From NCBI GenBank assembly GCA_021740915.1, contig JAIOYW010000023.1, forward strand, positions 1 to 56,120: DNA of 56,120 bases, in the 5' to 3' direction. The notes beneath the pieces were generated by a model, which was not told the DNA's origin, did no database searches, and saw nothing but the letters and a program-made list of their open reading frames with translations. The position numbers and the translations under genes are program-made. Positions 40,201-56,077 of this stretch are shown piece by piece. This DNA is from Ignavibacteriales bacterium. Its GTDB lineage: Bacteria > Bacteroidota > Ignavibacteria > Ignavibacteriales > Melioribacteraceae. The first letter of the stretch is position 1. Each line of letters begins with the position of its first letter.

Positions 40201-42076
40201 TTATTCAACTGGGAGAGTAAGTGGAGGACCTCCTACAGGTGGATTTGTGGCAACATATAATTCCGGAACAGTAACAAGTTGCTATTGGGATACTGAAACA
40301 TCCGGGCAAACTTCAAGCGCCGCCGGAACCGGTTACACAACTGCACAAATGAAAGTCCAGGGTAATTACTCCGGATGGGATTTTACAAATACCTGGGGAA
40401 TTGACGCAAATATAAACGATGGTTATCCATATCTGAAAGGTTTTCTTGATAATATCAGTGAACCAATCACACAAGCCACAGATCCGGCTTGCACAGAAAT
40501 CGGAAATATTTACGCAAATTTAAGCTGGACAAATGGGAATGGTGAGATGAGATTCGTTTTCGCTAAAGAAGGGAATAGCGGAACCGCTTCGCCTGTTGAT
40601 TTTAATAATTACGAGGCTTCAATCGGTTTTGGACAAGGAACACAAATTGGGAGTACAGGCTGGTATTGTGTTTATAAAGGGACCGGGAATTCAGTTTCAA
40701 TAAAAAATCTATCTCCTAACACTGCATATATATTCCAGGTTTTTGAAGGCAATGGTTATTCAACATTTTATAATTTTAATACTTCTTTAACTTCAAATAG
40801 TATAAGTACAACAACTGAAAATTCCGTTCGTTCAAACTTAGCGCTTACATTTGACGGTACGGATGATTATGTGTCCTTGCCTAATGAACTTTATAATACT
40901 AATTTCTCCGGTGGTTCAGCTATAACAATTGAATATTGGTTTAAAGGAACACAATTACAATCCCCGCTAAGGTTTCAAGATGGAAATGGTTATCTCGTTG
41001 CCGGGTGGAACAGCCCGCCGCAGTTCATAATCTCTTCTGATGGCGGTACAAACGGGGTACAAATTGCCACAGATGCCGCGGTTGAAGATAACCAATGGCA
41101 TCATGTAGCTTGTGTTTGGCAAAAAAATACTGCAGGAGGGTTTAAAACATATCTGGATGGTTCCCTTTCAAATTCCAAAGATGCTGGCAATGTAGATCTT
41201 CCAACAATAACATCTGGGGGCTATATTGGTTGTTATAATGCCTCAGGCGAATTTATAAATGGACAGATGGATGAGATTAGAATATGGAATGTGGCAAGAA
41301 CAGCAGAACAGATTTCGGGAAACATGAAAACTGAACTGACTGGAGGTGAAGCCGGATTGGTTGCTTATTATAATATGAATTCAATAAATAAAAATATCCT
41401 GGAAGATAATACTACTGCCAAAGGAGCAAACCAAGGGACATTGTTTAATGGTGTTTATTACTCCGAAGCTGACGATATTTCGACCCTTCCTGTAGAACTC
41501 ACTTCATTCACTGCCAAAATATACGAGAACAAAGTAACACTTAACTGGCAGACCGCAACAGAAGTGGATAATTACGGCTTTGAAATACAAAGGCAGTATT
41601 CCGGGAAGAGAATTCCAAACCCGGAATGGGAAAAAGTTGGTTTTGTGGCAGGTCACGGCAGCAGTAATTCACCTAAAGAATATTCTTTTGCTGATGAATC
41701 TATACAAAACGGGATTTATTCATACAGGCTAAAACAGATAGACATCGATGGTGAGTTTGAATACTCCGGTGTGCTGGAGGTTGAGGTAAATTTTCTGCCT
41801 AAAGAGTTTTCTCTTTCACAGAATTATCCTAATCCGTTTAATCCAAGCACGACAATAAAATATTCAATCCCTGCAGGCGTAGAGCCGTCATATATGACGG
41901 CTCTAATAGTGTACGACATTCTCGGAAACGAAGTAGCTACTTTGGTAAACGAAAGACAAAAATCTGGCAATTACGAAGTAAAATTTAATGCTTCCAACTT
42001 GGCAAGTGGAATTTATCTATATAGATTGCAAAGTGGCAGTTTTGTACAAACAAGGAAACTAATTCTGTTAAAATAA
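37262..42076 (+). CDS. Giant secreted LamG/fibronectin/GLUG protein with T9SS sorting domain
   Basis: The 1604-residue protein has a signal peptide (KKLITLTSLFITLNLFAQ). Two LamG/concanavalin-like domains follow (about 22-210 and 245-420, each ending GTLDEVRVWN- or GKMDEVRIWS-type), then a fibronectin III domain (about 455-545) and a beta-rich middle. GLUG repeats (about 850-1000) show GFFGYFNGTVTNLGL and TISNCYSTGRV. A third LamG domain (about 1190-1390) comes before the T9SS type A sorting domain (QNYPNPFNPSTTIKYS, ending KLILLK). It should be exported by type IX secretion and attached to or released from the cell, probably binding polysaccharide. A 24-bp palindrome is inserted in frame in the sorting domain. 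Confidence 0.92.
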   Translation: MKKLITLTSLFITLNLFAQNNSLQFDGINDHINSGTINLSGSAITLETWVKADAFQSNFPYISQIAGTEASGNSAFLRLGDGDIPAGNKVQFVLQFGGSQIKLTSSSTLQTGQWYHIAGTYDGTNMKVYINGAQDASNSQSGSFTSNSTFYLATNDGSGRFLDGTLDEVRVWNDARTETEIRQNIYRELPDPSSETNLIAYYKLNESSGTTASDSKNNYDGTLTNMAGSEWVTESPFEAPKYALDFDGTNDYVQAGAIAFTGSTLTIEAWIRPRTFNDGSDANITDLVKDANEKLVLRIGDGGIENNRLQFVLSIGNTQYKLQANTLLSADTWYHVAAAYDGSNMKLYINGVEDNTTGRTGNIDAGAGNLLIGGNSGGRRLDGKMDEVRIWSTARSASEISSNMTSLLNGFETGLTAYYRFDDGTGTTLTDQKSTYNGTLTNMDNADWVNSYAMVLAEDATDISTTSFTANWDCPGTGSSFDDGYTIQYSTTSDFSSGNNTTTATSSETSKSITGLSAGTTYYYRVSGKRSGDATLEYSNVKSAATTSLISYIVSGAGSSEVNGTYVESGTYNGKTQYRLGSTDYYLRYNGYGSNRWEIWNDNYWETLYYTNVAGDTPPSTGWTTYFGDDPAPSVEISSPSIAYSASEFNESYDDDGSISNNITITCNNVDGVEFTGTNGDNFVTGGKVVVTNLPPGLTAVITRTDNLTLSVSLTGNATSHDYPNSVPDLTFTFQNSAFSNNDASGVRNSTKADLIVNFYDTWGPDAVQPPLQDPGSPYDANTNPYVVSSLAHLSWLSQNTSGWDKAYIQSGTIDASQTQYWDDSDDDSDGDKFNDANDAISAGNNEGFQRIGIYSNNFTGNYNGQYYVIKGLYIFSSSERVGFFGYFNGTVTNLGLIDADITMGSFNNGILTGQMMGGVIENCLVTGSIVSNSQNMGSITGYMASGTIRNCYSTASVSSSSIRIGGFLQTINSGTISNCYSTGRVSGGPPTGGFVATYNSGTVTSCYWDTETSGQTSSAAGTGYTTAQMKVQGNYSGWDFTNTWGIDANINDGYPYLKGFLDNISEPITQATDPACTEIGNIYANLSWTNGNGEMRFVFAKEGNSGTASPVDFNNYEASIGFGQGTQIGSTGWYCVYKGTGNSVSIKNLSPNTAYIFQVFEGNGYSTFYNFNTSLTSNSISTTTENSVRSNLALTFDGTDDYVSLPNELYNTNFSGGSAITIEYWFKGTQLQSPLRFQDGNGYLVAGWNSPPQFIISSDGGTNGVQIATDAAVEDNQWHHVACVWQKNTAGGFKTYLDGSLSNSKDAGNVDLPTITSGGYIGCYNASGEFINGQMDEIRIWNVARTAEQISGNMKTELTGGEAGLVAYYNMNSINKNILEDNTTAKGANQGTLFNGVYYSEADDISTLPVELTSFTAKIYENKVTLNWQTATEVDNYGFEIQRQYSGKRIPNPEWEKVGFVAGHGSSNSPKEYSFADESIQNGIYSYRLKQIDIDGEFEYSGVLEVEVNFLPKEFSLSQNYPNPFNPSTTIKYSIPAGVEPSYMTALIVYDILGNEVATLVNERQKSGNYEVKFNASNLASGIYLYRLQSGSFVQTRKLILLK
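41881..41904. repeat. 24-bp perfect palindrome in the T9SS domain coding sequence
   Basis: AGAGCCGTCATA is followed directly by its exact reverse complement. It lies in frame inside the sorting domain, between the TTIKYS strand and the VYDILGNEV strand, and encodes a loop (EPSYMTAL). Confidence 0.85.
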
Positions 42077-44052: not shown

Positions 44053-45207
44053 ATGAAAAAATTATTACTTACCCTAATCTTAGTTCTTTTTGCATTGCAA
44101 ATATTTGCACAAAATATTACAAATACTTTGGGCGATAACGGCTTTTTTTATATTAAAGACGCAACTGCAACACCAAATACTTGGTTTACTTTGCAAGAAT
44201 CTAACGGCTACGTCGGTATCGGAACAACAAATCCAACTTACAAATTAGAAGTAAATGGTAATATCAAAGCAAGTCACTTTGGGCTTGATGCTACAGGTTA
44301 TTTTCAGACCCAAACCATTGATGGAAGCACTGAAGATATTGTTATTGCTTGTGATAATAATGATTTTTTCTTTTATGAACGCGAAAGTGATTTTTACCAG
44401 TTTAATATAGGTGGAGCAGCAAAACTGCGTATTCAGGCAAATGGCAGGGTCGGCATCGGAACAGAATCACCAGACGCTCCGTTGCATGTTTCTGGGTCTG
44501 TTGGAATTAGTTCAGCAGCAAGCTACTTTAATTCTGGTACAAATAGTCAACTTTACTGGAGTAACCCCGGCACTTTTAATGTAACCATACGTGCCAGTAA
44601 TGATATTATGGCAGGTGGTTCTATTGTGGCAACATCCGACAAAAGGGTAAAAGAAAATATTACAGAATTGCATCATTCTTTAGATTTGATAGGCAAGCTG
44701 AGACCCGTTTCCTATAACAAGATAGATAAAGTGGAACAAGGCAACAGGATTAAATACGGATTTATAGCTCAGGAAGTGGAAGAAGTTATTCCTAATGCAG
44801 TAAATACCGGCAAAGGCGAAATCCCCGTATTAAAACCATTTGAATCGGTTGATTTTGAAGCGGGTGTAAGCTATACTCTGTTGGTTAAAAACGGCGATGA
44901 TATTGTAGAGCAAAAATACACTACAAAAGATCCGAGACCCGAAGGCGAGATCATCGTAAAATCGAAGACCGTGGATGACTTTAAGTCTTTAACCTACGAT
45001 ATGATTTTCACCGTGGCAGTGGATGCAATCCAGGAACAGCAAAAACAAATTGAAGAACTTAAAGCCGCTAATTTGTTATTAGCACAAAAATTACAAGTAA
45101 TTGACGAACTTAAAGTGGAGCTTGTTAAGCTTCAGAAAGCTTTTGAAAATAAAGATTTACAAGCACCAAATAATCAAATAAGACTTACAACTCTTGAGAA
45201 CAAGTAA
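44053..45207 (+). CDS. Secreted protein with S74 intramolecular chaperone domain
   Basis: The 384-residue protein has a signal peptide (LLLTLILVLFALQIFAQ) and two VGIGT-x-[NS]P repeats (GYVGIGTTNPTYKLEVNGN; RVGIGTESPDAPLHVSG), as in phage-fibre-like trimeric stalks. The C-terminal peptidase S74 chaperone domain (about 195-330) has the conserved ATSDKRVKENI and KYGFIAQEVEEVIP. S74 domains help a trimeric fibre fold and often cleave themselves off at the Ser-Asp step. A coiled coil (about 325-370, EQQKQIEELKAANLLLAQKL) ends the protein. There is no T9SS domain. It lies 18 bases before a T9SS protein and divergent from an AraC-type regulator. Confidence 0.9.
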   Translation: MKKLLLTLILVLFALQIFAQNITNTLGDNGFFYIKDATATPNTWFTLQESNGYVGIGTTNPTYKLEVNGNIKASHFGLDATGYFQTQTIDGSTEDIVIACDNNDFFFYERESDFYQFNIGGAAKLRIQANGRVGIGTESPDAPLHVSGSVGISSAASYFNSGTNSQLYWSNPGTFNVTIRASNDIMAGGSIVATSDKRVKENITELHHSLDLIGKLRPVSYNKIDKVEQGNRIKYGFIAQEVEEVIPNAVNTGKGEIPVLKPFESVDFEAGVSYTLLVKNGDDIVEQKYTTKDPRPEGEIIVKSKTVDDFKSLTYDMIFTVAVDAIQEQQKQIEELKAANLLLAQKLQVIDELKVELVKLQKAFENKDLQAPNNQIRLTTLENK

Positions 45208-45225
45208 ATTTGATAAGGTGACAAA

Positions 45226-46011
45226 ATGAAAATAAAATTAATAATAGCAATATTTATTCTGCTTATTACGCATGTTATGGCGCAATCAATAGAAATTGGA
45301 AGTGCGGCAGAAATAAATGTCAGTGCGGGAGCAGATATTTGTGCCGGTTCTCATGGAAACATAACAGGAAATCTTACCGGTTCGGGGACACAATGCGACG
45401 GGACACTGCCAGTGGAATTAACATCATTTTGGGCAGAAATAAGTGAAAAAGATGTAGTTCTAAACTGGCAGACTGCTACTGAAGTAAATAATTACGGCTT
45501 TGAAATCGAGAGGATCTCACCCCAACCCCTCTCCTGGCAAGGAGAGGGGCAGGGGAGAAGTTGGGTGAAGATCGGCTTTGTAGAAGGACACGGAAATTCA
45601 AACTCGCCGAAAAATTATTTTTTTATTGATAATTCAATTACTGAAGGGAACTATTCTTATCGCCTAAAACAAATAGACACAGACGGAAAATTTGAATATT
45701 CCGAAATAGTAGCAGTTGAAATAGGGAATCCGTCAACTGACGGACCTACGGATTTTGAACTATTCCAAAACTATCCTAATCCGTTTAATCCAAACACAAG
45801 TATCGATTACTCACTACCGGTTGATGAATATGTAAGTTTAAAAGTTTATGATATACTTGGAAATCAGGTTGCTGAATTGGTAAATGAAAAGAAAGCTGCC
45901 GGAAAATATAAAATTAATTTTAATGCATCGTATTTATCGAGCGGATTATGTATCTACAAAATACAGGCAGGAAGTTTTTCTAAGGTACGTAAGATGATGC
46001 TTTTAAAATAG
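45226..46011 (+). CDS. Small secreted T9SS protein
   Basis: The 261-residue protein has a signal peptide (IIAIFILLITHVMAQ), a short Gly/Ser/Ala/Asn-rich region and then the region that usually precedes the T9SS domain (LPVELTSFWAEISEKDVVLN, TATEVNNYGFEIER). The sorting domain shows QNYPNPFNPNTSIDYS and ends KMMLLK. It is little more than a secretion tail plus a short leader. A 24-bp palindromic element (45526-45549) is inserted in frame and adds about a dozen residues (PQPLSWQGEGQG) where the LamG protein has a shorter loop. It is probably co-transcribed with the S74 gene, 18 bases upstream. Confidence 0.85.
   Translation: MKIKLIIAIFILLITHVMAQSIEIGSAAEINVSAGADICAGSHGNITGNLTGSGTQCDGTLPVELTSFWAEISEKDVVLNWQTATEVNNYGFEIERISPQPLSWQGEGQGRSWVKIGFVEGHGNSNSPKNYFFIDNSITEGNYSYRLKQIDTDGKFEYSEIVAVEIGNPSTDGPTDFELFQNYPNPFNPNTSIDYSLPVDEYVSLKVYDILGNQVAELVNEKKAAGKYKINFNASYLSSGLCIYKIQAGSFSKVRKMMLLK
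45526..45549. repeat. In-frame palindromic element
   Basis: CCCCTCTCCT (45526-45535) pairs with AGGAGAGGGG (45540-45549) around a 4-base loop. It lies inside the T9SS gene and is translated as LSWQGEG. I recognise this motif as a common dispersed element in related bacteria. Confidence 0.85.
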
Positions 46012-46018
46012 GTAACAA

Positions 46019-46048
46019 GGGGCTGTCTCAAAATAACGTTACAGCCCC
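46019..46048 (+). repeat. GGGGCTGT hairpin between the T9SS gene and the IS remnant
   Basis: GGGGCTGT (46019-46026) pairs with ACAGCCCC (46041-46048). GGGGCTGTCTCAAAAT resembles an IS terminal repeat. The hairpin may also end transcription of the T9SS gene, but no T tract follows. Confidence 0.4.
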
Positions 46049-46092
46049 TAAAATCCAGACGAAATACAAGCAAAATAAATAAAAATAATATA

Positions 46093-46345
46093 GAAGAAAG
46101 GCTGCAAATTGAAGCGACGATAGGTCACTTGGAAAAAGACCACAGACTGAACCGAAATTTTACAAGGGGATTATTGGTGATTCGATCAACGTATTGCTAT
46201 CGGCAGCAGCATATAACTTCAGGAGGGTGATGAGAAAATGGTCATCATCTTTTTGGCTCCTCATTGATCGCAAAATTTGTTCGTCGTTTATTTCGGCTTG
46301 TGACTTTAGAACGGTGACTTTTTTACTGAAATTGACTTTTTAGGG
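46093..46345 (+). pseudogene. IS5-family-like transposase remnant (C-terminal, frameshifted)
   Basis: One frame reads RLQIEATIGHLEKDHRLNRN then FTRGLL, the typical C-terminal catalytic-region end of IS5-type transposases (IE..IGHLK.DHR). A one-base loss near 46187 shifts to the next frame, which continues DSINVLLSAAAYNFRRVMRK and ends TFLLKLTF at TAG (46343-46345). No intact start or N-terminal part is present. The remnant ends beside TTTTTAGGGGTCAAC, a plausible IS edge. Confidence 0.6.
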
Positions 46346-46529
46346 GTCAACTAATTAGATTTCAGTCTTTTCGCATTTTCCGGTCTTTAAATATATATTT
46401 TTATATGGGAAATAATTGTCTGTTTATTTCAGTAACGTGATTATACGAACTTATTTTAGTTTTTGTCTGAATTATTGGCTTTTAATATTTGCCGGAGAAC
46501 TTTATTGACCCGGCTATTTAAGAAATTTT
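46346..46529. other. AT-rich region before the sigma factor
   Basis: It probably holds the promoter of the sigma-factor operon. I saw no clear box or repeat. Confidence 0.35.
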
Positions 46530-47075
46530 ATGATCACTGAAAACAGCGAAATATTTTTCAAAAATCTGGTTCTTGAAAATCAGGAGCGTGTAAGAAATAT
46601 CTGCTTCCGTTTCCTGAATGACCGGGATGACGCCGAGGATGCCGCACAGGAGGTATTCATTAAAGTTTTTGATTCTCTTGGCAGTTTCCGCAGCGAATCG
46701 GAAGTGACCACATGGATTTATCGTATTGCGGTAAACAAATCCTTAGATATGATCCGCAGAAAAAAAAGGAAAAAACGATTTGCTCTGCTCACTTCAGTTT
46801 TCGTTGATTCCGAAGAAGAGATTGAGATCAGCATCCCGGCTGAGGGTGATCCCGGAAAGGAATTGGAAGATGCAGAACGAAAACGAATACTGGACGAAGC
46901 ATTGGGGAAAATTCCGGTATCCCAGAGAACGGCTCTTATTCTCAGCAAAACACAGGGATTCAGCAATAACGAAATAGCAGAAATAATGAATATTACAGTC
47001 TCAGCGGTGGAATCATTGATCCACCGGTCAAAAAAAAATTTAAGGAAATTGCTGTACAAATATTTTTCTTATTAA
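46530..47075 (+). CDS. ECF sigma factor
   Basis: The 181-residue RNA polymerase sigma factor has region 2 (residues about 15-80: FRFLNDRDDAEDAAQEVFIK, WIYRIAVNKSLDMIRRK) and region 4 (about 120-175: IPVSQRTALILSKTQGFSNN, EIAEIMNITVSAVESLIHRS). A basic linker between them is rich in Lys and Arg. ECF sigma factors switch on regulons for envelope or metal stress. The next two genes encode a membrane protein and a periplasmic sensor, a usual sigma/anti-sigma/co-sensor set. Confidence 0.93.
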   Translation: MITENSEIFFKNLVLENQERVRNICFRFLNDRDDAEDAAQEVFIKVFDSLGSFRSESEVTTWIYRIAVNKSLDMIRRKKRKKRFALLTSVFVDSEEEIEISIPAEGDPGKELEDAERKRILDEALGKIPVSQRTALILSKTQGFSNNEIAEIMNITVSAVESLIHRSKKNLRKLLYKYFSY

Positions 47076-47132
47076 AAATAATTAAAGGCGCAGGTTTTTT
47101 TGAAATTCAGCGTCAAAGAATCAGGTGGAAGA

Positions 47133-47468
47133 ATGGATAACAGATCACAAATAAAAAATAAGGTTGACCATGCAATGAAATTGCTTGATGAATTGGATGA
47201 GATGAAGCCCGATCCATACTTTTTATCAAAACTCGAAACCAGAATTAAATCAGCAGAAAAAGCAAAATTTTCTGTTTCCGGCTGGGTAAAACCTGCGCTG
47301 GCAGGAGTTCTGCTTATGGTTAATATCGGAACTGCTCTATGGTACGTTTCCGGTTCCGGGAATACTGCCCAGACTAATACCGAAACTCAGTTGATCAGAT
47401 ATTTGGCGGGTGATCTTATCAGCACTGAAAATGAATATCCTTTCCTGAAAAAGGAGAACAGCAGATGA
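47133..47468 (+). CDS. Small membrane protein, probable anti-sigma factor
   Basis: The 111-residue protein has a soluble N-terminal part (KMLLDELDEMKPDPYFLSKL-like, acidic) and one membrane segment (about residues 49-70, VKPALAGVLLMVNIGTALWY), then a short periplasmic tail. ATG at 47133 was chosen over an upstream TTG (47100) because AGGTGGAAG lies directly before it. It overlaps the next gene through ATGA. Position directly after an ECF sigma factor and topology suggest an anti-sigma role, although it lacks a recognisable zinc-binding His-x3-Cys-x2-Cys motif. Confidence 0.65.
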   Translation: MDNRSQIKNKVDHAMKLLDELDEMKPDPYFLSKLETRIKSAEKAKFSVSGWVKPALAGVLLMVNIGTALWYVSGSGNTAQTNTETQLIRYLAGDLISTENEYPFLKKENSR

Positions 47469-47953
47469 ACATATTTACAGAGAAAAAGTTTACGTCAATT
47501 CTGATAATTCTCCTCGTAATATTGAACATTGGAACAATTACATTACTGCTTCTGGGAAGACCGGAATTTCCGCCAGCCCATCCCGGAGATGAAAGACCCC
47601 GCGATGAAAATCGAATGATTGCCGGTTTGCTTAAAATGGAGCTTGATTTCAGCGAAGAACAAATCCGGGACTATTTTGAATTACGCTCAACCCATTCGGA
47701 ACAAGTATCACAACTGAACAGGGAGATCAGAAGGCTTAAAAAAGAGATGTTTGATGAAGTGCTGGCTGATGTATCGGAGCCGGAAATTTCCGACTCGCTT
47801 CTTACTTTATCCCAGAGTAAACAGAATCAGGTTGAACGACTCACTTTCAAACACTTCCTCGAACTGAAAAAAATATGCAGCCCTGAGCAGCAGACCAAAT
47901 TACGGCGAATATTCCACAGACTTTTTATCCCAAAACCGGGCAGCCCAGGGTAA
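47465..47953 (+). CDS. Membrane-anchored Spy/CnrX-like periplasmic sensor
   Basis: The 162-residue protein has one membrane anchor (about residues 11-31) and a helical periplasmic domain (about 50-155) rich in Glu, Arg and Leu: LKMELDFSEEQIRDYFELRS, REIRRLKKEMFDEVLADVSE, and HFLELKKICSPEQQTKLRRI. This layout fits the heavy-metal-sensor/Spy-CpxP family. No clear metal-binding cluster is visible apart from scattered His, Met and Cys. It follows the likely anti-sigma gene with a 4-base overlap. It may detect envelope or metal stress for the sigma factor; this is inference. Confidence 0.7.
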   Translation: MNIFTEKKFTSILIILLVILNIGTITLLLLGRPEFPPAHPGDERPRDENRMIAGLLKMELDFSEEQIRDYFELRSTHSEQVSQLNREIRRLKKEMFDEVLADVSEPEISDSLLTLSQSKQNQVERLTFKHFLELKKICSPEQQTKLRRIFHRLFIPKPGSPG

Positions 47954-48380
47954 AATGTATCCCCCGGGGGATGATGCACCGATTTTCCAATAATGAAAAA
48001 TCTGCGCCCGGCTCAGAAATTCCGTGACAATGGCATGGAAATTAAAGCGATTATTTTGGACACCAAAGCCAAAGATAATAGCTTCTGTACAATACCAGTC
48101 CGACTCGGGAAGTGATATGCGAGGGTAGCTTCCGATTAAACTCCGGTTTTATTTTTAGTTAATGTTGTGCAGCAGTAAAAGAACCTGAAGAATTTCAATG
48201 CGCAATGTTTGTCATAAGTTAATAAGGTTTTTACCCGAACTTTAATTATCTTGCAAATTAAGGGATACACTTTTCTAATTTAAATAAGAAATTAAATCAC
48301 TTATAATCTGAATAACTGCGAAATTCGAAACGCGGGTTTCGGTTTATTTGGCTTATTTATCTCTTGAGAGAAAACGTAAT
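47954..48380. other. Intergenic region upstream of the CHAT operon
   Basis: These 427 bases hold no gene. ATCCCCCGGGGGAT at 47959-47972 is a perfect 14-bp palindrome just after the sensor stop and may be part of a terminator, but it lacks a T tract. The promoter of the downstream operon should lie near 48250-48380. Confidence 0.4.
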
Positions 48381-48959
48381 ATGTACAAATTATTCTTACT
48401 CGCACTTGTGTTTTTCCACGCAAATTTCTATTCCCAGAACAAAATCGTTGACGCTAATATTGGGATTATTGTCGAATCAGATGATAATCAAAGGATACTT
48501 AAAAAGAATGATTTTATTACAGGCTCCGAAAAATTCAGAGTGAAAATTGATGCTAACAGTGAAATGCTGACTTATGTAATTTATTCAGATGCACAGGAAA
48601 CAATAATACTTAACACTGAAGGAAAAGGCGCTATCTTAAAAAAGGACAGTTCAATTACACTTCCGGCGCCGAATGAATTGTACACCATAACAGGTACTGA
48701 GAAAGCCACTATCACAATAATCTGCAGCGCTGAGTCCATCCCTGAAATTGAAAAAATCACCAGAGACGGTAAACTACCCCCGGAAAGCTGGAGTAAATTT
48801 ATAAACAGTTTTTATAGTAAAAATATTAGTATTATCAATAACACAGCAGAAAAAAGCATACCTCTGGCAGGAAACCGACGAGGCGAGACCCTAACGATTC
48901 GGAATTTTCGAGGCGCTTCAATAATTCTCAGGAAATATGAAATTACATTTAAAAAGTAG
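48381..48959 (+). CDS. Secreted DUF4384-like protein of the CHAT/CHASE2 operon
   Basis: The 192-residue protein has a signal peptide (MYKLFLLALVFFHANFYSQ) and one beta-rich domain: LKKNDFITGSEKFRVKIDAN, MLTYVIYSDAQETIILN, then SITLPAPNELYTITGTEKAT and ITIICSAESI. The layout (a dimension-setting strand, then a 'voice of the cell' Y-V strand and a final hydrophobic strand) resembles DUF4384, a domain often encoded with caspase-like and CHAT proteases. The match is by pattern only. ATG at 48381 was chosen because GAGAG lies upstream and the signal peptide starts there. It overlaps the cyclase gene by 23 bases, a sign of tight co-expression. Confidence 0.6.
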   Translation: MYKLFLLALVFFHANFYSQNKIVDANIGIIVESDDNQRILKKNDFITGSEKFRVKIDANSEMLTYVIYSDAQETIILNTEGKGAILKKDSSITLPAPNELYTITGTEKATITIICSAESIPEIEKITRDGKLPPESWSKFINSFYSKNISIINNTAEKSIPLAGNRRGETLTIRNFRGASIILRKYEITFKK

Positions 48960-51126
48960 TAAACAGCTTAACATTTATCTTCCGCTGATCACTTCTTTTA
49001 TTCTATTATTTGCTGCAGGTCTGTGGTTGACAGATGTCATCTACAACTCCATTGACTACAAAATTATTGATTTAGCATATTCCCAGGCTTATGCGGATAA
49101 TCGTTCTGTGAAAGCAAAAAATCAGGTGGTTCACCTGAATATCACTGACAGTACCTACGATTATCTTCATTCAAATTACTTGAGCCGATCTTTTTTAGCT
49201 GAGATTAACCGCAGCCTGGGCAAACTTGAGCCTGCAGCCGTGATGTACGATCTGATTTTTGCTTTCCCCGGAAATCCTTCTGATGATTCCTTATTTGCGT
49301 CTTCTCTCTCGGAGGCAAAATTTTATCTTCCGGTCGGGCCTAAACTTGAGAATACACTTGCAAAAGCGCAGTCCAAAAATGCGGAGATCCTTCCCGCTGA
49401 ACTCGCCTCCCGTTACCTTTTACCGCTTAAAACTATAAACGAAGGTTCTCCCTATTTCGTCAGTAATTTTAGTGTTCAATATTCGCCTTTTTGGCAAAAT
49501 TGTTACGGAAGCGGACATATAGGAATAAAAAGTGATCCTGATGGTATTTTCAGACATATACCTCTTATTGTACGTTATGACTCTCTCTATTTGCCATCCA
49601 TATCTTTAGCTATGATTCTTGATTATTACAATATTCCATTCGATAGTGTCAGGATTAATTTCGGTAATGAAATCGTCATCCCCTATCGAAGGGAGAGTTT
49701 ACTTACAGAACCTTTAAGAATACCCATTGATGAAACGGGATCATGTTTTATTCCATTCCGGAATCGATGGGAAAATATGGGAGAAATGATAGATATTCAA
49801 AATTTTCACGAATACTCCCGCAATATTGAGCACTTCAATTCACTTTCAGAAATTATCGAAGGAAATTTTGTTATGATTGCCGATGTTTCAACGGGTATAT
49901 CCGATCTTGGGAGCACTCCGCTGGAAGACGATGTACCGCTTATAGTTGTTCATTCGGCGATGACTGATGCTATGCTGAATAATTCTTTTTTTTATAAATG
50001 GAGTAAAGAAAAAGTCATCCTAATCTTTCTCGCCGGCTGCTTCTTTATTGTTTTCGGAAGTCTTTTCAAGCGGAACTACCCGATCTATATTTCCTCAGTC
50101 GCAGGTTTTTGTTTATTTCAGATATATCTGTTTTCCCAATTTAATAATGCGATACTTCTTCCAGCAGCTACATTGAATATTTCGTTAGCTCTGGTTTTTA
50201 TTCTTTCAATTGTCTCACTCCAGGTTATTGGTAAAAAACAGGAAGTATTTATTAAGAATGCATTTGCCATGTATGTGCCCGATAAGATTGTTGAAATACT
50301 TGTGGAGAACCCGGGAATGTTGAAGCTGGGAGGAGAAGAAAGAATTGTTACGATGCTGTTTTCTGATCTGACGAATTTTACCGGATCATCTGAAAAAGTA
50401 TCTCCAAAATCGGTAGTAGGGCTGCTAAATAGTTACTTTACTGAAATGACTGAAATAATAATGAATGAGAACGGAATCGTTGATAAATTTCTCGGCGACG
50501 GTATTCTTGCAGAGTTCGGTGCGCCGGTTTATTGCGAAGATCATGCAGATAGAGCGGTTTCCGCAGCAATTAACATGAAAAAACGTCTTCAAAGTTTTAA
50601 TGCTAACGGTGAAAAAGCCGGGTTTTCAGATATTGGGATGAGAATTGGAATAAATTCAGGCAATGTGATACTTGGGAACATAGGCTCAAAAAAAGTCTTC
50701 GACTATACTGTCATCGGTGATAACGTAAATCTTGCAGCCCGTTTGGAAAGTGTTAATAAAGTTTATGCGACAGAAATTTTAATCTCCGAATCTACGTTCA
50801 GCCTCATTAATAAATCCAAATATTTCTATAGACCGATCGATATTATACAGGTCAAAGGCAAAACAGAGCCTATTGAGATTTATGAGATTTTCTCATTCAG
50901 CAATGATCTAATTGAAGAAAAATTAAAAGATTTATTCAAAAAGTATTCTGAAGCAATTCAGCAGTTGAAAAGAATTGATCTGGAGCAGGCAAAACATTCT
51001 TTTGAGCTTTGTCTTGAGATTAAACCGGATGATGTGCCTTCTGCCCTTCTGCTTGAAAGAGTTAACGGATATATTAATTCCGGTGAAATTATTAACAATA
51101 TTCAACATGTACTAAGAAATAAGTAG
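48937..51126 (+). CDS. CHASE2-domain class III adenylate cyclase
   Basis: The 729-residue protein has one membrane segment (about 13-35), an extracytoplasmic CHASE2 domain (about 45-340, with VVHLNITDSTYDYL, MYDLIFAFPGNPSDDSLFAS and ISDLGSTPL) and three membrane segments (about 348-430). The cytoplasmic cyclase domain (about 470-655) has the metal-binding aspartates D477 (FSDLTNFT) and D521 (LGDGILAEFG). It also has the adenine-choosing Lys517 and Thr591 (class IIIb pattern) and the transition-state N598 and R602 (NVNLAAR). It should make cAMP in response to an outside signal. A short helical tail follows. It lies between the DUF4384-like and the CHAT genes. Confidence 0.92.
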   Translation: MKLHLKSSKQLNIYLPLITSFILLFAAGLWLTDVIYNSIDYKIIDLAYSQAYADNRSVKAKNQVVHLNITDSTYDYLHSNYLSRSFLAEINRSLGKLEPAAVMYDLIFAFPGNPSDDSLFASSLSEAKFYLPVGPKLENTLAKAQSKNAEILPAELASRYLLPLKTINEGSPYFVSNFSVQYSPFWQNCYGSGHIGIKSDPDGIFRHIPLIVRYDSLYLPSISLAMILDYYNIPFDSVRINFGNEIVIPYRRESLLTEPLRIPIDETGSCFIPFRNRWENMGEMIDIQNFHEYSRNIEHFNSLSEIIEGNFVMIADVSTGISDLGSTPLEDDVPLIVVHSAMTDAMLNNSFFYKWSKEKVILIFLAGCFFIVFGSLFKRNYPIYISSVAGFCLFQIYLFSQFNNAILLPAATLNISLALVFILSIVSLQVIGKKQEVFIKNAFAMYVPDKIVEILVENPGMLKLGGEERIVTMLFSDLTNFTGSSEKVSPKSVVGLLNSYFTEMTEIIMNENGIVDKFLGDGILAEFGAPVYCEDHADRAVSAAINMKKRLQSFNANGEKAGFSDIGMRIGINSGNVILGNIGSKKVFDYTVIGDNVNLAARLESVNKVYATEILISESTFSLINKSKYFYRPIDIIQVKGKTEPIEIYEIFSFSNDLIEEKLKDLFKKYSEAIQQLKRIDLEQAKHSFELCLEIKPDDVPSALLLERVNGYINSGEIINNIQHVLRNK

Positions 51127-51150
51127 TTTAAAATAATTATAGGTGAGTCT

Positions 51151-54117
51151 TTGAAAGGGATTAAATTTTTAATTATAACAATTATTTTTATTAACATTTT
51201 TACACAGGCGCAAAGCCTCGACAGTCTTAATACTCTTATCTTTGAAAACTATAGCAAAGGTGATTACCAAACGGCTTCTGTTTATGCAGAAAAAGCTGTT
51301 GAAAAATGCAAGCAGGATTCGGGGAAATTGTCTGATTGTTATGTTGAATCACTCAATAATCTTGGAGTATTGTATGAAGCATTGGGCAGGTTCAACGATA
51401 TTTTTCCTCTGTATCTTGAGGCTCTGGAAGTCATAAAACAGACCGGGGGAAATGAGAACCAGCATTACGTTATTACTCTTAATAATCTGGCCGGTTTATA
51501 CCAATCGGTGGGCAAATACGATGATGCTCTGCCAATTTATCTAGAAGCATTGAATTCCTCAGAAAAAAAATCCGGAAAAAAGCATCCTGAGTACAGTAAG
51601 TGCCTTAATAATCTGGCTGTATTATACAAAGAAATGGGAAGAAACGAAGATGCCCTGCCATTATTTTTAGAAGCAATGGAAATTAACGGAAAAACTCTTG
51701 GGAAAGAACATTGGGAGTATGGAGTTAACCTGAACAATCTGGCTCACCTTAATCAGTTAATGGGAAGATATAAAGAAGCATTGCAGTTTTCCAACGAATC
51801 GCTCTCTGTAACTGAAAAGACTTTGGGGAAATCCCACATAACTTACAGTATTCGGCTGAATAATCTTGCGGTTCTGTATCGGGAACTGGGAAGAAATGAA
51901 GAAGCATTACCTTTAATTCTTGAGGCATTGAATATAACAGAAAATACTTTAGGGAAAGAACATGCCAATTACGGATTCCTCTTAAATAATCTGGCATTTA
52001 TTTATCAGGCAATGGGGCTATATGATGAAGCGCTTGAAACCTTTCTCACAGCTTTAGAAAATACCGAAAAGACGCTTGGCAAAGATCATTACGAATATGG
52101 CAATCGTTTGAATAACCTCGCAATGTTATACAGGGAAATGGGAAGGGATGAAGAAGCCCTGTCCTTATCGCTTGATGCATTTGGGAACACAGAACGGGCA
52201 CTTGGTAAGGATCATGCTGATTATGGTGTGCGACTTCACAATCTGGCTTTAATATATATGGATTTAGACAGGTATGATGAATCACAAAAATTGTTTCTTG
52301 AGGCATTACCAATATTAACTGCTGCGTTAGGCAAGGATCATTCCAAATACGGAAATATATTGGTTAGCCTGAAAGAATTATATATTGCTATGAATCAGGA
52401 TTCTCTTGCTGCCCCTTTGATCATCGAAGCCAACCAAAATCTCATAAAACAGATTAAATCAGTCTTTTCATTTTCTTCCGAAAAAAATAAACGGGAATTT
52501 TTCGCTTCACTCTGTAAGAACTTCGATCAGTTCCAATCATTTATGCTTAAAACCGGCGGTAAATATGAGGATCTGTCCGGAATGATGTATGACGATCTAT
52601 TAATTCTCAAAGGACAGATTCTCAATGAGTCAAAAGCAATGCTTCAAAGCGTCTTTAATAACCCGGACAGTTTAGTTTCCGAAAAATACAGCCAATGGAT
52701 CGGATTAAAACGCCGGCTTGCAACTCAATTCGGAAAGCCTATAAGCAGCAGGAAATTTAATATTGACAGTCTGCAAAATATTGCCAACAAACTTGAAAGT
52801 GAACTTGTCATGCTTTCCAAAGATTTTCAGATCGTAAGAGAGAAAGAGGCCGTCACCTGGAAAGATATCAGGGGAACTCTAAAAGATGACGAAATCGCCA
52901 TCGAATTTTCCAGGTTCAGATATTATGATAGAAAATGGACTGATTCGGTATATTATGTGGCATATGTCGTTACTCCGGGATGTGAAAACCCGGAGATGAT
53001 AGTTTTGTTTGAAGAAAATGAACTCTTAAAATTTCTGAGAGGGAATAGCCCCGAAAGCCTATACAACACAAGATCACTTTCGACAGTCGCGGCTAAAAGT
53101 TCAAGCGGGTTAAATGACAGCCTTTACAATCTTATCTTAAAACCACTTGAATCCGTAATAACGGGAAAGAAAAACATATATTTTTCAACGGACGGAAATT
53201 TACACCAGATTGCATTCGCTGCTTTGCAGAACACTGCGGGCATACTTATGTGCGAAAAACATAATCTTGTTCAGTTGAACAGCACAAACCAGATTATTGT
53301 TAAAAGGGAACAACCTTCCAAAGAGCCCGCTCTTCTTGCCGGCGGAATAAATTTCAATTACGACAAAGGACTAAACACAGATACTTCGGGTACATTCAAT
53401 TTCAATCCTTTAAGCAATAAGGATAAGAAATTAAGATCAGCGGGCCGCAGGATATCTGACGAATGGCAATACCTCGAAGGCAGTAAAAATGAAATAGAGC
53501 TTATCAATAAAATATACCGCGAAAAAAATTTGAGTGCAACCGTGCTGAGCGGAGAAGCTGCAACTGAAGAAGAGATCAAAAAACTCGACGGAAACAGCCC
53601 GAAAATACTTCATCTTGCAACTCATGGTTTTTTCTTTGAAGACCCGGAAGATAAAAGAAAAGACGGCTATTCTGATAATAACACCTACGCTTTTTCAGAT
53701 GATCCATTGCTGAGGTCAGGCTTGGTTTTAGCCGGAGCGAATTATGCCTGGAAAAATGGTGTCAACCCTTATAAAAAGGAAGATGGTATTTTAAGTTCTT
53801 ATGAAATATCGAACCTGAACCTGAGCAATACTGATCTGGTTGTTTTAAGCGCCTGTGAAACCGGCTTGGGCGATATTGAAGGGAGTGAAGGAGTTTACGG
53901 CCTTCAGAGAGCGTTCAGGATGGCAGGGGCAGACTATCTGATAATGAGCCTTTGGAGTGTGCCGGATGAAGAAACTGTTGAATTTATGGAAATATTTTAC
54001 AAATCATGGCTTTCAGATAAGACTATTCGCGAAGCCTTCACTTCAGCGCAGGTTGCAATGAGTAATAAGTATAGAACCGATCCTGATAAATGGGCTGCTT
54101 TTGTTCTGGTTGAATAA
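51151..54117 (+). CDS. Secreted TPR-CHAT protease
   Basis: The 988-residue protein has a signal peptide (GIKFLIITIIFINIFTQAQS) and nine kinesin-light-chain-type TPR units of 42 residues (about 60-430, L-N-N-L-A-x-L-Y pattern). A helical linker and a C-terminal CHAT caspase-like domain (about 640-988) follow. The catalytic dyad is intact: His825 in LHLATHGFFF and Cys902 in LVVLSACETGLG. Such proteases usually cut after basic residues. The start is a TTG, supported by AGGTGAG just upstream. The gene is last in the operon. The signal peptide means it acts outside the cytoplasm, unlike cytosolic Csx29-type CHAT enzymes. Confidence 0.92.
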   Translation: MKGIKFLIITIIFINIFTQAQSLDSLNTLIFENYSKGDYQTASVYAEKAVEKCKQDSGKLSDCYVESLNNLGVLYEALGRFNDIFPLYLEALEVIKQTGGNENQHYVITLNNLAGLYQSVGKYDDALPIYLEALNSSEKKSGKKHPEYSKCLNNLAVLYKEMGRNEDALPLFLEAMEINGKTLGKEHWEYGVNLNNLAHLNQLMGRYKEALQFSNESLSVTEKTLGKSHITYSIRLNNLAVLYRELGRNEEALPLILEALNITENTLGKEHANYGFLLNNLAFIYQAMGLYDEALETFLTALENTEKTLGKDHYEYGNRLNNLAMLYREMGRDEEALSLSLDAFGNTERALGKDHADYGVRLHNLALIYMDLDRYDESQKLFLEALPILTAALGKDHSKYGNILVSLKELYIAMNQDSLAAPLIIEANQNLIKQIKSVFSFSSEKNKREFFASLCKNFDQFQSFMLKTGGKYEDLSGMMYDDLLILKGQILNESKAMLQSVFNNPDSLVSEKYSQWIGLKRRLATQFGKPISSRKFNIDSLQNIANKLESELVMLSKDFQIVREKEAVTWKDIRGTLKDDEIAIEFSRFRYYDRKWTDSVYYVAYVVTPGCENPEMIVLFEENELLKFLRGNSPESLYNTRSLSTVAAKSSSGLNDSLYNLILKPLESVITGKKNIYFSTDGNLHQIAFAALQNTAGILMCEKHNLVQLNSTNQIIVKREQPSKEPALLAGGINFNYDKGLNTDTSGTFNFNPLSNKDKKLRSAGRRISDEWQYLEGSKNEIELINKIYREKNLSATVLSGEAATEEEIKKLDGNSPKILHLATHGFFFEDPEDKRKDGYSDNNTYAFSDDPLLRSGLVLAGANYAWKNGVNPYKKEDGILSSYEISNLNLSNTDLVVLSACETGLGDIEGSEGVYGLQRAFRMAGADYLIMSLWSVPDEETVEFMEIFYKSWLSDKTIREAFTSAQVAMSNKYRTDPDKWAAFVLVE

Positions 54118-54150
54118 TATTTAATATATGTCGTAATATTTGATGTAACG

Positions 54151-54185
54151 ATACCGGTTTGCTAAAATATTTAGGAAACCGGTAT
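54151..54185 (+). terminator. Hairpin after the CHAT operon
   Basis: ATACCGGTTT (54151-54160) pairs with AAACCGGTAT (54176-54185). Inside the loop CTAAA-ATA-TTTAG pairs again, with a G-G mismatch between. The T tract after it is weak. It lies 34 bases after the CHAT stop. Confidence 0.5.
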
Positions 54186-54484
54186 TACTTCTGTGTCATT
54201 CGAAGTTGGATCAATGGTGCCCTAATATTCTGGATATCTGAATTGTCTTTAGAAGCAAAACCTGCCTGTCTGATCAATCCCTGATTGTTGATGTCACGAC
54301 CAGCCCCACCCCTGATTTACTGTAATGTGAATATCCCTTAAAAAAATATCGATTTGCCGCACAAGTTTTTTTCTGAGTTGTCGTCTTAATAACTGAGAGG
54401 TGAAATTACTGTTCCTTCATGATGGAACTAATAATTTTTCCTTGTTCGGAATTGATGTAAAATTTTAACAATTTGAGGTGATAA
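54186..54484. other. Intergenic region
   Basis: No gene or repeat of note is visible in these 299 bases. The last part before 54485 contains TTTGAGGTGATAA, a weak ribosome binding site. Confidence 0.4.
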
Positions 54485-56077
54485 ATGAATATAAACAAAA
54501 TTTTTCCCCGGACATTTAAGATGCCTGTTTTATTTTTTCTTTTAAATACGCTGATGTTCGCACAATCCTACCCGATTGTTGATACAGGGCAGGAGAAATT
54601 CTTCGGGGATAGTCTTGTTATTGCCGCTCCTTCCATAAATGATAATTACTATGGACAGGATGCCCAGTTCAATGGTTTTCAGCCGTCATATACTGATAAT
54701 GGCGATGGTACCATCACAGATAATGTAACCGGATTAATGTGGCAGAAATCAGGCGATTTTAACGGAGACGGGCTGATAAACTACTCTGATAAAATGTCAT
54801 ATTCCGAAGCAATGGCGGCAGCAGACACTTTTTCACTCGCCGGATATAACGACTGGCGGATGCCGACAATAAAGGAACTCTATTCACTCATACTATTTAC
54901 CGGAATTGATCCAAGCGGCTGGAACGGGACAAACACCGATCTTCTCACAGCTTTTATTGACGACAATTATTTTGAATTCGGCTTCGGCGATGTTTCATCC
55001 GGTGAAAGAATAATTGATGCACAGTATGCTTCATCAACAATGTACGTAAGCACAACGATGAATAATGAAGAAACTATTTTCGGGGTTAACTTTGCTGACG
55101 GAAGGATCAAGGGATATCCGACAGGACCGATGCCGGGAAGTTCTTTGGATAAACAATATTACATAAAATATGTCCGCGGAAATCCGGCTTACGGGGTCAA
55201 CGATTTTTCAGATAACGGTGATGGCACTATCAGCGATTATGCGACAGGACTGATGTGGCAGAAAGACGATAACGGAGCGGCTCTTAACTGGAAAGCAGCG
55301 CTCGAATGGGTCAGTCAGAAAAATACCGAAAATTACCTTGGCTACAGCGACTGGAGACTTCCGAACGTTAAGGAATTACAAAGCATAGTTGAATACACAA
55401 GATCACCGGCAACAACAGGCAGCGCTGCAATCGATCCTGTTTTTGAATGCACAGAAATTACCGATGAAGGCGGAGTAAACAATTTCCCCATGTACTGGAG
55501 CGGAACCACCCATGAGAATATGGTGAACGGACTGAATGCAAGTTATGTTGCATTCGGTGAGGCTCTGGGCTGGATGGAAATGCCGCCGTTCTCAGGCAAT
55601 TATGTCCTCATGGACGTGCATGGAGCCGGGGCACAGAGGAGCGATCCGAAAGCCGGCGATCCTGCCAATTTCCCCTACGGTCATGGTCCGCAGGGAGATG
55701 TTATAAGAATATATAATTATGTCAGGATGGTTAGGGATAACGACACAACAACTTCCGTCGGGGAAAATGGGGAGAACAGTTCTCCTTCAGGGTTTTCTCT
55801 GGAGCAGAATTACCCCAATCCCTTTAATCCTGTAACAACAATTAAATATTCAGTTCCGAATGTAATGACAGGGAACGCCCTGTCATTACAACAGAATGTC
55901 ACATTAAAGGTTTATGATATTCTCGGGAACGAAACTGCAACTTTGGTAAATTCGCAGCATTCCGCAGGAGATTATGAAGTGCTGTTTGATGCAGGTAACC
56001 TTTCGAGCGGAGTTTACTACTACAGATTAACAGCCGGTAAATTTGCCGAAACAAAAAAGTTTGTTTTACTGAAATAA
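54485..56077 (+). CDS. Secreted DUF1566 protein with T9SS sorting domain
   Basis: The 530-residue protein has a signal peptide (VLFFLLNTLMFAQS) and two DUF1566 (Lcl C-terminal-type) domains. The first spans about 70-235 (DNGDGTITDNVTGLMWQKSG, YNDWRMPTIKEL); the second spans about 240-415 (DNGDGTISDYATGLMWQKDD, YSDWRLPNVKEL). A Ser/Gly/Asn linker leads to the T9SS type A sorting domain (QNYPNPFNPVTTIKYS, ending KFVLLK). Two palindromes lie in the linker (55771-55785) and in the sorting domain (55861-55890). Function of the domain is unknown. It is secreted and probably attached to the cell surface. Confidence 0.9.
   Translation: MNINKIFPRTFKMPVLFFLLNTLMFAQSYPIVDTGQEKFFGDSLVIAAPSINDNYYGQDAQFNGFQPSYTDNGDGTITDNVTGLMWQKSGDFNGDGLINYSDKMSYSEAMAAADTFSLAGYNDWRMPTIKELYSLILFTGIDPSGWNGTNTDLLTAFIDDNYFEFGFGDVSSGERIIDAQYASSTMYVSTTMNNEETIFGVNFADGRIKGYPTGPMPGSSLDKQYYIKYVRGNPAYGVNDFSDNGDGTISDYATGLMWQKDDNGAALNWKAALEWVSQKNTENYLGYSDWRLPNVKELQSIVEYTRSPATTGSAAIDPVFECTEITDEGGVNNFPMYWSGTTHENMVNGLNASYVAFGEALGWMEMPPFSGNYVLMDVHGAGAQRSDPKAGDPANFPYGHGPQGDVIRIYNYVRMVRDNDTTTSVGENGENSSPSGFSLEQNYPNPFNPVTTIKYSVPNVMTGNALSLQQNVTLKVYDILGNETATLVNSQHSAGDYEVLFDAGNLSSGVYYYRLTAGKFAETKKFVLLK
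55771..55785. repeat. Palindrome before the T9SS domain
   Basis: GGAGAAC-A-GTTCTCC is a perfect 7+1+7 inverted repeat in frame in the linker just before the sorting domain. Confidence 0.6.
55861..55890. repeat. 30-bp in-frame palindrome in the T9SS domain
   Basis: TGTAATGACAGGG (55861-55873) pairs perfectly with CCCTGTCATTACA (55878-55890) around AACG. It sits in the same loop of the sorting domain as the 24-bp palindrome at 41881, but its sequence is different. Confidence 0.85.

Follow-up and report, generated by a model that had tools for sequence, protein, structure and literature searches.

A DUF4384-related protein and a CHASE2-adenylate cyclase encoded beside a TPR-CHAT protein in an Ignavibacteriales genome: a candidate for a recurrent cell-envelope signalling module

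To our knowledge, the ligands of CHASE2 domains and the roles of exported bacterial caspase homologues are largely open. C14 peptidases and CHAT domains represent two branches of the caspase fold. Several described systems come close to the locus analysed here. The Sinorhizobium meliloti CHASE2 cyclases CyaK and CyaD1/D2 depend on the outer-membrane protein NsrA for their response to a protein signal (PMC7529298, PMC13001267), and in magnetotactic bacteria mtxA, a gene for a signal-peptide protein, lies directly upstream of a CHASE2-cyclase gene (PMC4439547). Trichodesmium erythraeum encodes a metacaspase-CHASE2 fusion (PMC3501461, PMC2853523), and metacaspase operons (217) include signalling, sensor or regulatory domains in 23 cases and OmpA in 14 (PMC3501461). 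DUF4384 is an accessory domain in several cyanobacterial orthocaspases (PMC7475262). Published work thus already includes both the fusion of a metacaspase to CHASE2 and CHASE2 cyclases that work with an additional envelope protein. Here we describe a stretch of 56,120 nucleotides (nt) from an Ignavibacteriales bacterium (GenBank assembly GCA_021740915.1, contig JAIOYW010000023.1, positions 1 to 56,120 of the forward strand; the whole stretch is called the window), in which consecutive genes encode a small DUF4384-related protein (G1), a CHASE2-adenylate cyclase, and a protein with TPRs and a CHAT domain (TPR-CHAT). We propose, with a probability of roughly 0.55, that these three genes represent the most compact version seen of a recurrent signalling module of the cell envelope, in which input from a peptidase-fold protein would pass through CHASE2 to cyclic AMP (cAMP).

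An operon-like arrangement of the three genes is supported by their shared strand and close spacing. The G1 and cyclase genes overlap by 23 nt (48937-48959), and the TTG start of the TPR-CHAT gene at 51151 lies 24 nt past the end of the cyclase gene, matching the overlap and 24-base spacing described in an earlier note that a model made from this DNA alone. The next gene on the 3' side (54485) and a group with an extracytoplasmic function (ECF) sigma factor on the 5' side (46530-47953) are on the same strand; they were treated as separate units because they lie 367 and 427 nt away. Promoter-like sites were as frequent as in shuffled sequence (23 versus 22.8) and terminator-like sites numbered 9 versus 5.9 in shuffles (standard deviation 2.7); neither was used as evidence.

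Evidence for a module comes from gene neighbourhoods in other genomes, which the earlier note had named beforehand as the place where its proposal could fail. The linkage was kept. A C14 or CHAT gene lies within 12 kb in 22 of 27 distinct G1-CHASE2 pairs, the nearest never more than 6.6 kb away, while the same hidden Markov models (HMMs) detected C14 or CHAT in 2/20 randomly drawn other CHASE2 loci, and G1 in 0/20 (Fisher p ~1e-6 for 22/27 versus 2/20, with relatedness ignored). The control loci were drawn from 136 other CHASE2 loci among the matches listed, with 9 kb sought on each side; seven of the 20 stretches are shorter than 12 kb (contig ends), and 13 match the CHASE2-cyclase HMM, the remaining 7 being other CHASE2 kinds. 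Both control positives have a CHASE2-cyclase with divergent CHAT genes (the L078/L082 type; G and L numbers are our handles for genomes and loci). The tally loci were recruited by similarity to G1 or to the cyclase, not via peptidases, and the tally omits duplicate records (L104, L106, L107, L109, L117-L119), cyclases that lack a neighbouring G1, and G1s that lack a neighbouring CHASE2 gene. Four of the five misses (L062, L105, L114, L115) have less than 1 kb on at least one side; the fifth is L068. Pfam searches alone place a peptidase near 9/18 G1-CHASE2 loci versus 8/136 other CHASE2 loci listed, and these figures are lower bounds: they rest on the best 99 of 112 CHAT rows and the best 53 of 55 C14 rows, and miss the C14 proteins of G019 (68.8 bits) and G059:C265 (71.5 bits). 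Among the 15 weakest CHAT or C14 rows, one shares a contig with a listed CHASE2 gene, about 1.6 Mb away (G025:C1). His and Cys motifs are kept in 18/18 G1-linked C14 proteins, the His/Cys dyad is kept by the CHATs of the window, L056-L060, L110 and L112, and an overlap of exactly 23 nt between the G1 and CHASE2 genes is shared by 10 of 25 distinct pairs, from both lineages. The G1-CHASE2 sensor is repeatedly partnered by a peptidase-fold protein, and the pairing of a TPR-CHAT with a CHASE2-cyclase, which the earlier note had thought unusual, belongs to a recurring pattern of C14 or CHAT partners.

Among 146 genomes of the order Ignavibacteriales, 15 have G1 matches, 134 cyclase matches and 63 CHAT matches. 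Orthologue-like cyclases (E<1e-140) occupy 16 places in 15 genomes, two of them in the window's own genome (G000). The second G1-cyclase pair of that genome, at locus L056, is also linked to a TPR-CHAT, there of 1167 aa; between the two come, in order, genes for an Ig-like protein, a protein of 245 aa and a VWA/TPR/OmpA protein. By eye, the 593- and 245-aa companions, which together with the VWA/TPR/OmpA protein occupy L056:5885-11211, resemble degenerate caspases, and the end of the Ig-like protein is caspase-like without the usual motifs; Pfam finds no C14 there. The L056-type layout also occurs in G029, G032 and G064, and the L057 homologue of the VWA/TPR/OmpA protein additionally matches SPOR. 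At the level of the phylum, the G1 profile matched in 18 of 395 sampled genomes, four of these matches sitting in proteins of 460-540 aa that a custom HMM identifies as papain-DUF4384. All eight class-level matches outside the order (L120-L127) show the order C14, G1, CHASE2 protein; Pfam identifies WD40, Ig-like and C14 domains in L120 and L122 and the cyclase in L120, L122, L124 and L127, and custom HMMs the rest. The CHASE2 proteins of G021 and G066 have SpoIIE at their end in place of a cyclase, and each is adjoined by a pair of C14 genes plus one papain-DUF4384 gene (the G066 peptidases being assigned by custom HMMs). Six deltaproteobacterial loci with G1-CHASE2 were found among named records. 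Desulfobacter latus (L112) encodes, on one strand, ShlB, a TPS protein, a TPR-CHAT, G1 and a CHASE2-cyclase; the TPR-CHAT of L110 is divergent from the G1-cyclase pair; L108 and L111 have C14 genes near the pair; and no peptidase gene was found in L114 and L115, where the stretches stop at contig ends. The coupling of G1 to CHASE2 proteins is thus seen in Ignavibacteria and in the former Deltaproteobacteria, and is not a one-off. The exact arrangement of the window, with G1, cyclase and an intact TPR-CHAT of the same family (CHATa), was found only here among the loci examined, its nearest intact analogue being the CHAT-G1-cyclase order of Desulfobacter latus.

Other layouts that bring together CHASE2, C14, CHAT or DUF4384 were also observed. 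L077-L082 (G017, G027, G030, G059, G073 and G086) share a second CHASE2-cyclase layout, in which genes for proteins of about 225 aa (FecR by Pfam in L077), 350 aa and 800 aa accompany the CHASE2-cyclase gene, and the group is divergent from two TPR-CHAT genes (~820 and ~1850 aa). In L131:73-10351, four C14 genes in tandem, with His/Cys motifs, accompany a papain-DUF4384 gene, with no CHASE2 match in the stretch. In L137:6461-15441, the neighbours of a CHATa relative are a C14 protein that matches DUF4384 weakly and a WD40 protein, part of which resembles C14. In L135:4488-7785 and L136:4931-11031, C14 has close by a CHASE2 protein of roughly 400 aa for which Pfam shows no cyclase domain; the C14 protein of L135 bears CsgG too, and in L136 a papain-DUF4384 gene (custom HMM) lies between C14 and CHASE2.

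The identity of the peptidase-fold partner varies between related sensors. A tree built from 32 CHASE2 cyclases joins the window's cyclase to the G019 enzyme (91/94, not starred), which is encoded next to a WD40-Ig-C14 protein. Both lie within an Ignavibacteriales clade of 15 rows (99/98) that also takes in the order's other CHAT-linked rows and in which C14- and CHAT-linked rows are intermixed. A deltaproteobacterial group of six rows (81/85, not starred) is mixed in the same way. Where the class-level and FecR-type groups join, long branches come together, and nothing is concluded from that join. Because C14- and CHAT-linked rows are mixed in the tree, the two kinds of peptidase appear to be exchangeable beside the same G1-CHASE2 pair.

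A further variant of the partner is found in G017, G030, G073, G112 and G059, where the next gene after that of the cyclase, on the same strand, encodes a protein of 616-673 aa. The CHAT search listed no match on the contigs of these five cyclases. Profile comparison with the CHATa family showed that the five proteins have TPRs and a truncated CHAT, and are not TPR-only: they align to CHATa residues 5-706 (window numbering) with probability 100 and then end. The aligned part covers the signal segment, TPRs, linker and beginning of CHAT, and stops before H825 and C902. Since four of the genomes (G017, G030, G073 and G112) carry one genus label and G059 another, these are two lineages, not five independent cases. 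None of the five cyclases has an adjacent G1; four of the five genomes have lone G1 genes elsewhere, and G059 has one next to the gene for an Ig-C14 protein. In the loci seen, an intact peptidase therefore goes with an adjacent G1, and the pairing of cyclase and TPR-CHAT outlasts the predicted loss of catalysis.

Domain and residue comparisons are consistent with the activities assigned to the two larger proteins. Pfam finds CHASE2 and Guanylate_cyc (102 bits) in the cyclase protein, both far above the cut-offs of these families, and the active-site residues listed in the earlier note (D477, D521, K517, T591, N598 and R602) are present at those numbers and unchanged in 13/13 aligned cyclases. 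We take the two Asp residues to bind metal, the Lys and Thr to recognize substrate, and the Asn and Arg to act on the transition state; by these residues, the protein fits a CHASE2 adenylate cyclase of class IIIb and is predicted to make cAMP. The closest cyclase domains by sequence in the PDB are 6fht, 2w01 and CyaB 3r5g, and in the alignment the solved cyclase 2w01 carries E where the window's protein has its Lys, and G where it has its Thr. A fold search of the CHASE2 structure model against the PDB gave no match at an E value of 0.001 or better. Seven cyclic nucleotide (cNMP)-binding matches in the same genome could be readers of cAMP. The TPR-CHAT scores 191.4 bits against CHAT (PF12770; curated cut-off 24) and has TPRs besides, and in a PDB sequence search it retrieves TPR proteins, with kinesin light chain on top. 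Its dyad, H825 and C902, is intact, as had been noted, and invariant across 7 aligned rows, and the protein is a predicted protease.

The suggestion that all three products are exported or have domains outside the membrane holds as to its signs, namely the signal-like N-termini of TPR-CHAT and G1 and the CHASE2 ectodomain; export itself, and the localisation of the module proteins generally, are inferred from such signs. TPR-CHAT satisfies a hydropathy rule for a signal segment (not SignalP), a rule also satisfied by 232 of 545 background open reading frames (ORFs), and is probably exported. The N-terminus of G1 is signal-peptide-like by eye and forms a helix at residues 2-16 in its structure model; the window's G1 falls outside the hydropathy list, and 16/16 related G1s satisfy the rule.

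The relationship of G1 to DUF4384, proposed in the earlier note, is best described as transitive. The window's G1 has no significant Pfam match (best E 0.031) and no match to DUF4384 (PF14326) at E values up to 1. Its paralogue in L056 matches DUF4384 at E 1.8e-4 and 21.9 bits, under the cut-off of 27. Searching with the G1 profile (A3) brings up a G227 protein at 3.3e-16, and the same protein matches DUF4384 at 51.3 bits, above the cut-off, which links G1 to DUF4384 through intermediate sequences. DUF4384 is also fused with papain-like domains in the genomes examined here. The AlphaFold2 (AF2) model of G1 is beta-rich, with a mean predicted local distance difference test (pLDDT) score of 83.1 and a predicted template modelling score (pTM) of 0.79; a fold search against the PDB gave only weak matches, none at E<=0.001 (best E 1.4e-3, TM 0.24). 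The sole poorly predicted loop, residues 161-169 (pLDDT <50), holds the motif AGN-x-R. In an alignment of 36 rows, 2 of them gapped at the motif, the rows with letters keep G164 in 34/34, N165 in 33/34 and R167 in 32/34. The pattern is uncommon outside G1 in the 972 ORFs of the loci; lone G1s keep the R in 4/5 and have K in 1/5, and class-level G1s extend about 35 residues beyond the motif.

Taken together, these observations suggest a pathway with the caspase-fold protein at its head. G1, translated in overlap with the sensor gene, would most likely sit on the CHASE2 ectodomain; the overlap of the two genes in both lineages argues for a stoichiometric G1-sensor complex. The exported caspase-fold protein, a TPR-CHAT here and a C14 protein or TPR-CHAT elsewhere, would be the input. 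Its TPR or WD40 part may bind a polypeptide beyond the inner membrane, and a partner with an intact dyad may cut that polypeptide or a component of the module. The state of CHASE2 would then change, and the cytoplasmic cyclase would produce cAMP. The contact of G1 with CHASE2, the direction from peptidase through CHASE2 to cAMP, and the nature of the target are inferred; the direction gains some support from S. meliloti, where CHASE2 cyclases answer a protein via an outer-membrane partner.

Several observations weigh against this pathway. Gene linkage would also fit plain co-regulation, and the p-values are overstated because the rows are related. At L068, no peptidase gene was found in the ~4 kb on each side of the G1-CHASE2 pair. 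G1 occurs alone in four genomes; in G059, the G1-C14 genes and the cyclase are on separate contigs; G069 has the L056 layout minus the cyclase, which a different contig carries; and the parts found in G036 are spread across two contigs. Finally, five cyclases have a TPR-CHAT homologue without the catalytic half, so cutting is not obligatory to the pairing.

This last point bears most directly on a narrower form of the proposed pathway, in which the TPR-CHAT must cut its target to start the cAMP signal. The intact His and Cys of the window's protein and of the listed G1-linked partners fit such a requirement, as does the near-invariant AGNxR loop, given that orthocaspases cut after positively charged residues (PMC6426788). 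The truncated partners speak against it, though their cyclases have no adjacent G1, and so does the retention of AGNxR in four of five lone G1s, with K in the fifth. We consider obligatory cutting somewhat unlikely. Of the mechanism in the earlier note, the linkage of the gene for a probably exported TPR-CHAT to a CHASE2-cyclase gene stands, proteolysis as a required trigger is weakened, and envelope damage or attack is a putative cue.

The pathway could also run in reverse, with CHASE2 and G1 sensing an outside cue and cAMP turning on an exported peptidase effector for remodelling, defence or self-lysis. Partners in G1-linked loci keep an intact dyad, the exchange of C14 and CHAT would equally fit an exchange of effectors, and the L056/L057-type loci add a VWA/TPR/OmpA protein (with SPOR in L057) typical of envelope machinery. 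However, truncated, non-catalytic CHAT partners would make poor effectors, and the overlap of G1 with CHASE2, not with the peptidase, ties the small exported protein to the sensor. This direction is judged unlikely.

More specific is a protease-activated cAMP receptor, in which the TPR or WD40 part would recruit the peptidase to a polypeptide ligand, and the peptidase would cut, clamp or dock at the near-invariant, flexible AGNxR loop of a G1 seated on the CHASE2 ectodomain; release or reshaping of G1 would let CHASE2 switch on cAMP or SpoIIE. The five cyclase loci with a truncated CHAT lack an adjacent G1 too. Reading AGNxR as a cut site is not preferred because lone G1s retain it, and the receptor is regarded as distinctly unlikely. 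That unrelated envelope genes became neighbours by chance in this genome is very improbable: although no other locus examined has an intact CHATa beside a G1-cyclase pair, and CHATa relatives occur without the pair in the stretches examined of L085, L088 (4 kb only), L090, L137 and L139, chance would leave unexplained the shared strand and 24-nt spacing, the TPR-CHAT linked to the second G1-cyclase copy of the same genome, the tallies of 22/27 versus 2/20, and the truncated CHATa homologues beside five cyclases.

If peptidase-fold proteins do act through CHASE2 on cAMP, the recurrent, G1-mediated coupling names a testable input for CHASE2, namely the peptidase-fold partner, and exported orthocaspases and CHAT proteins may have a role in signalling and not in cell death. 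The natural variants, with C14 or CHAT, catalytic or truncated partner, and cyclase or SpoIIE output, provide a comparison series.

The features of the window are collected in Table 1. Within the neighbouring 5' group (46530-47953), which is probably a separate unit, the ECF sigma factor is accompanied by a 122-aa protein without a Pfam match, by position a possible anti-sigma factor, and a Metal_resist protein. Proteins encoded at 54485-56077, 45226-46011 and 37262-42076 have a C-terminal sorting domain for type IX secretion; no such domain was found in TPR-CHAT among the Pfam rows listed. A histidine kinase of 1216 aa with 7TM, PAS and GAF domains is encoded at 28492-32142.

Table 1. Coordinates of the three genes in the window and of their main parts.
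Feature	Position	Strand	Basis
G1, small, predicted exported, DUF4384-related protein, 192 aa, predicted beta-rich	48381..48959	+	ORF, profile chain, AF2 model
AGNRRG motif of G1, residues 163-168, in low-pLDDT loop	48867..48884	+	Alignment, model
CHASE2-adenylate cyclase, 729 aa	48937..51126	+	ORF, Pfam, residue alignment
CHASE2 domain, aa 24-367, predicted mostly outside the inner membrane	49006..50037	+	Pfam 93.3 bits, structure model
Class III nucleotide cyclase domain, aa 471-648	50347..50880	+	Pfam, alignment, PDB sequence search
TPR-CHAT (CHATa), 988 aa, signal-like N-terminus, TTG start	51151..54117	+	ORF, Pfam, hydropathy rule
CHAT domain, aa 657-987	53119..54111	+	Pfam; H825 = 53623-53625, C902 = 53854-53856

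Searches of the open-licence literature found no description of a linkage of exported C14 or CHAT genes to genes for a DUF4384-related protein and a CHASE2-cyclase, nor any paper with both CHASE2 and a CHAT domain or with a CHAT protease and an adenylate cyclase. PMC10907252 places CHAT in other conflict systems, and CHASE2 and cyclase are absent from its text. A Pycsar defence system was considered but not favoured. The window's cyclase shares a class III cyclase domain with PycC, and PADLOC PycC models match aa 463-666 at most, confined to that domain; unlike PycC, it has a membrane CHASE2 sensor. No Pycsar effector model matched G1, TPR-CHAT or four L056 proteins, further neighbours having been scanned with Pfam only. 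Craspase, in the accessible text of PMC9729208 and PMC9935389, has the same TPR-CHAT architecture. Its TPR-CHAT partners Cas7-11, whereas that of the window has a signal-like N-terminus, and no Cas family was found among the nine window proteins of 44053-56077 in the Pfam scan.

The Trichodesmium fusion is a single protein with its caspase placed in the cytoplasm (PMC3501461) and, in the accessible text, no cyclase named; the peptidases of the window type are, in contrast, separate, predicted exported proteins. The words 'adenylate' and 'guanylate' are absent from the main text of PMC3501461, the domain details being in its supplement. The likeness of mtxA to G1 lies in gene order and signal peptide, and the accessible text of PMC4439547 mentions no peptidase. 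Unlike the caspase-fold partners described here, NsrA is predicted to be a beta-barrel of the outer membrane, and no DUF4384 partner is mentioned in the accessible text of PMC7529298 and PMC13001267; no barrel family was found among nine window proteins in the Pfam scan, the rest of the genome not having been searched. The system described in the two NsrA papers has the same outline as the module proposed here: an inner-membrane CHASE2 adenylate cyclase, a partner protein beyond that membrane, a proteinaceous signal, and cAMP as output.

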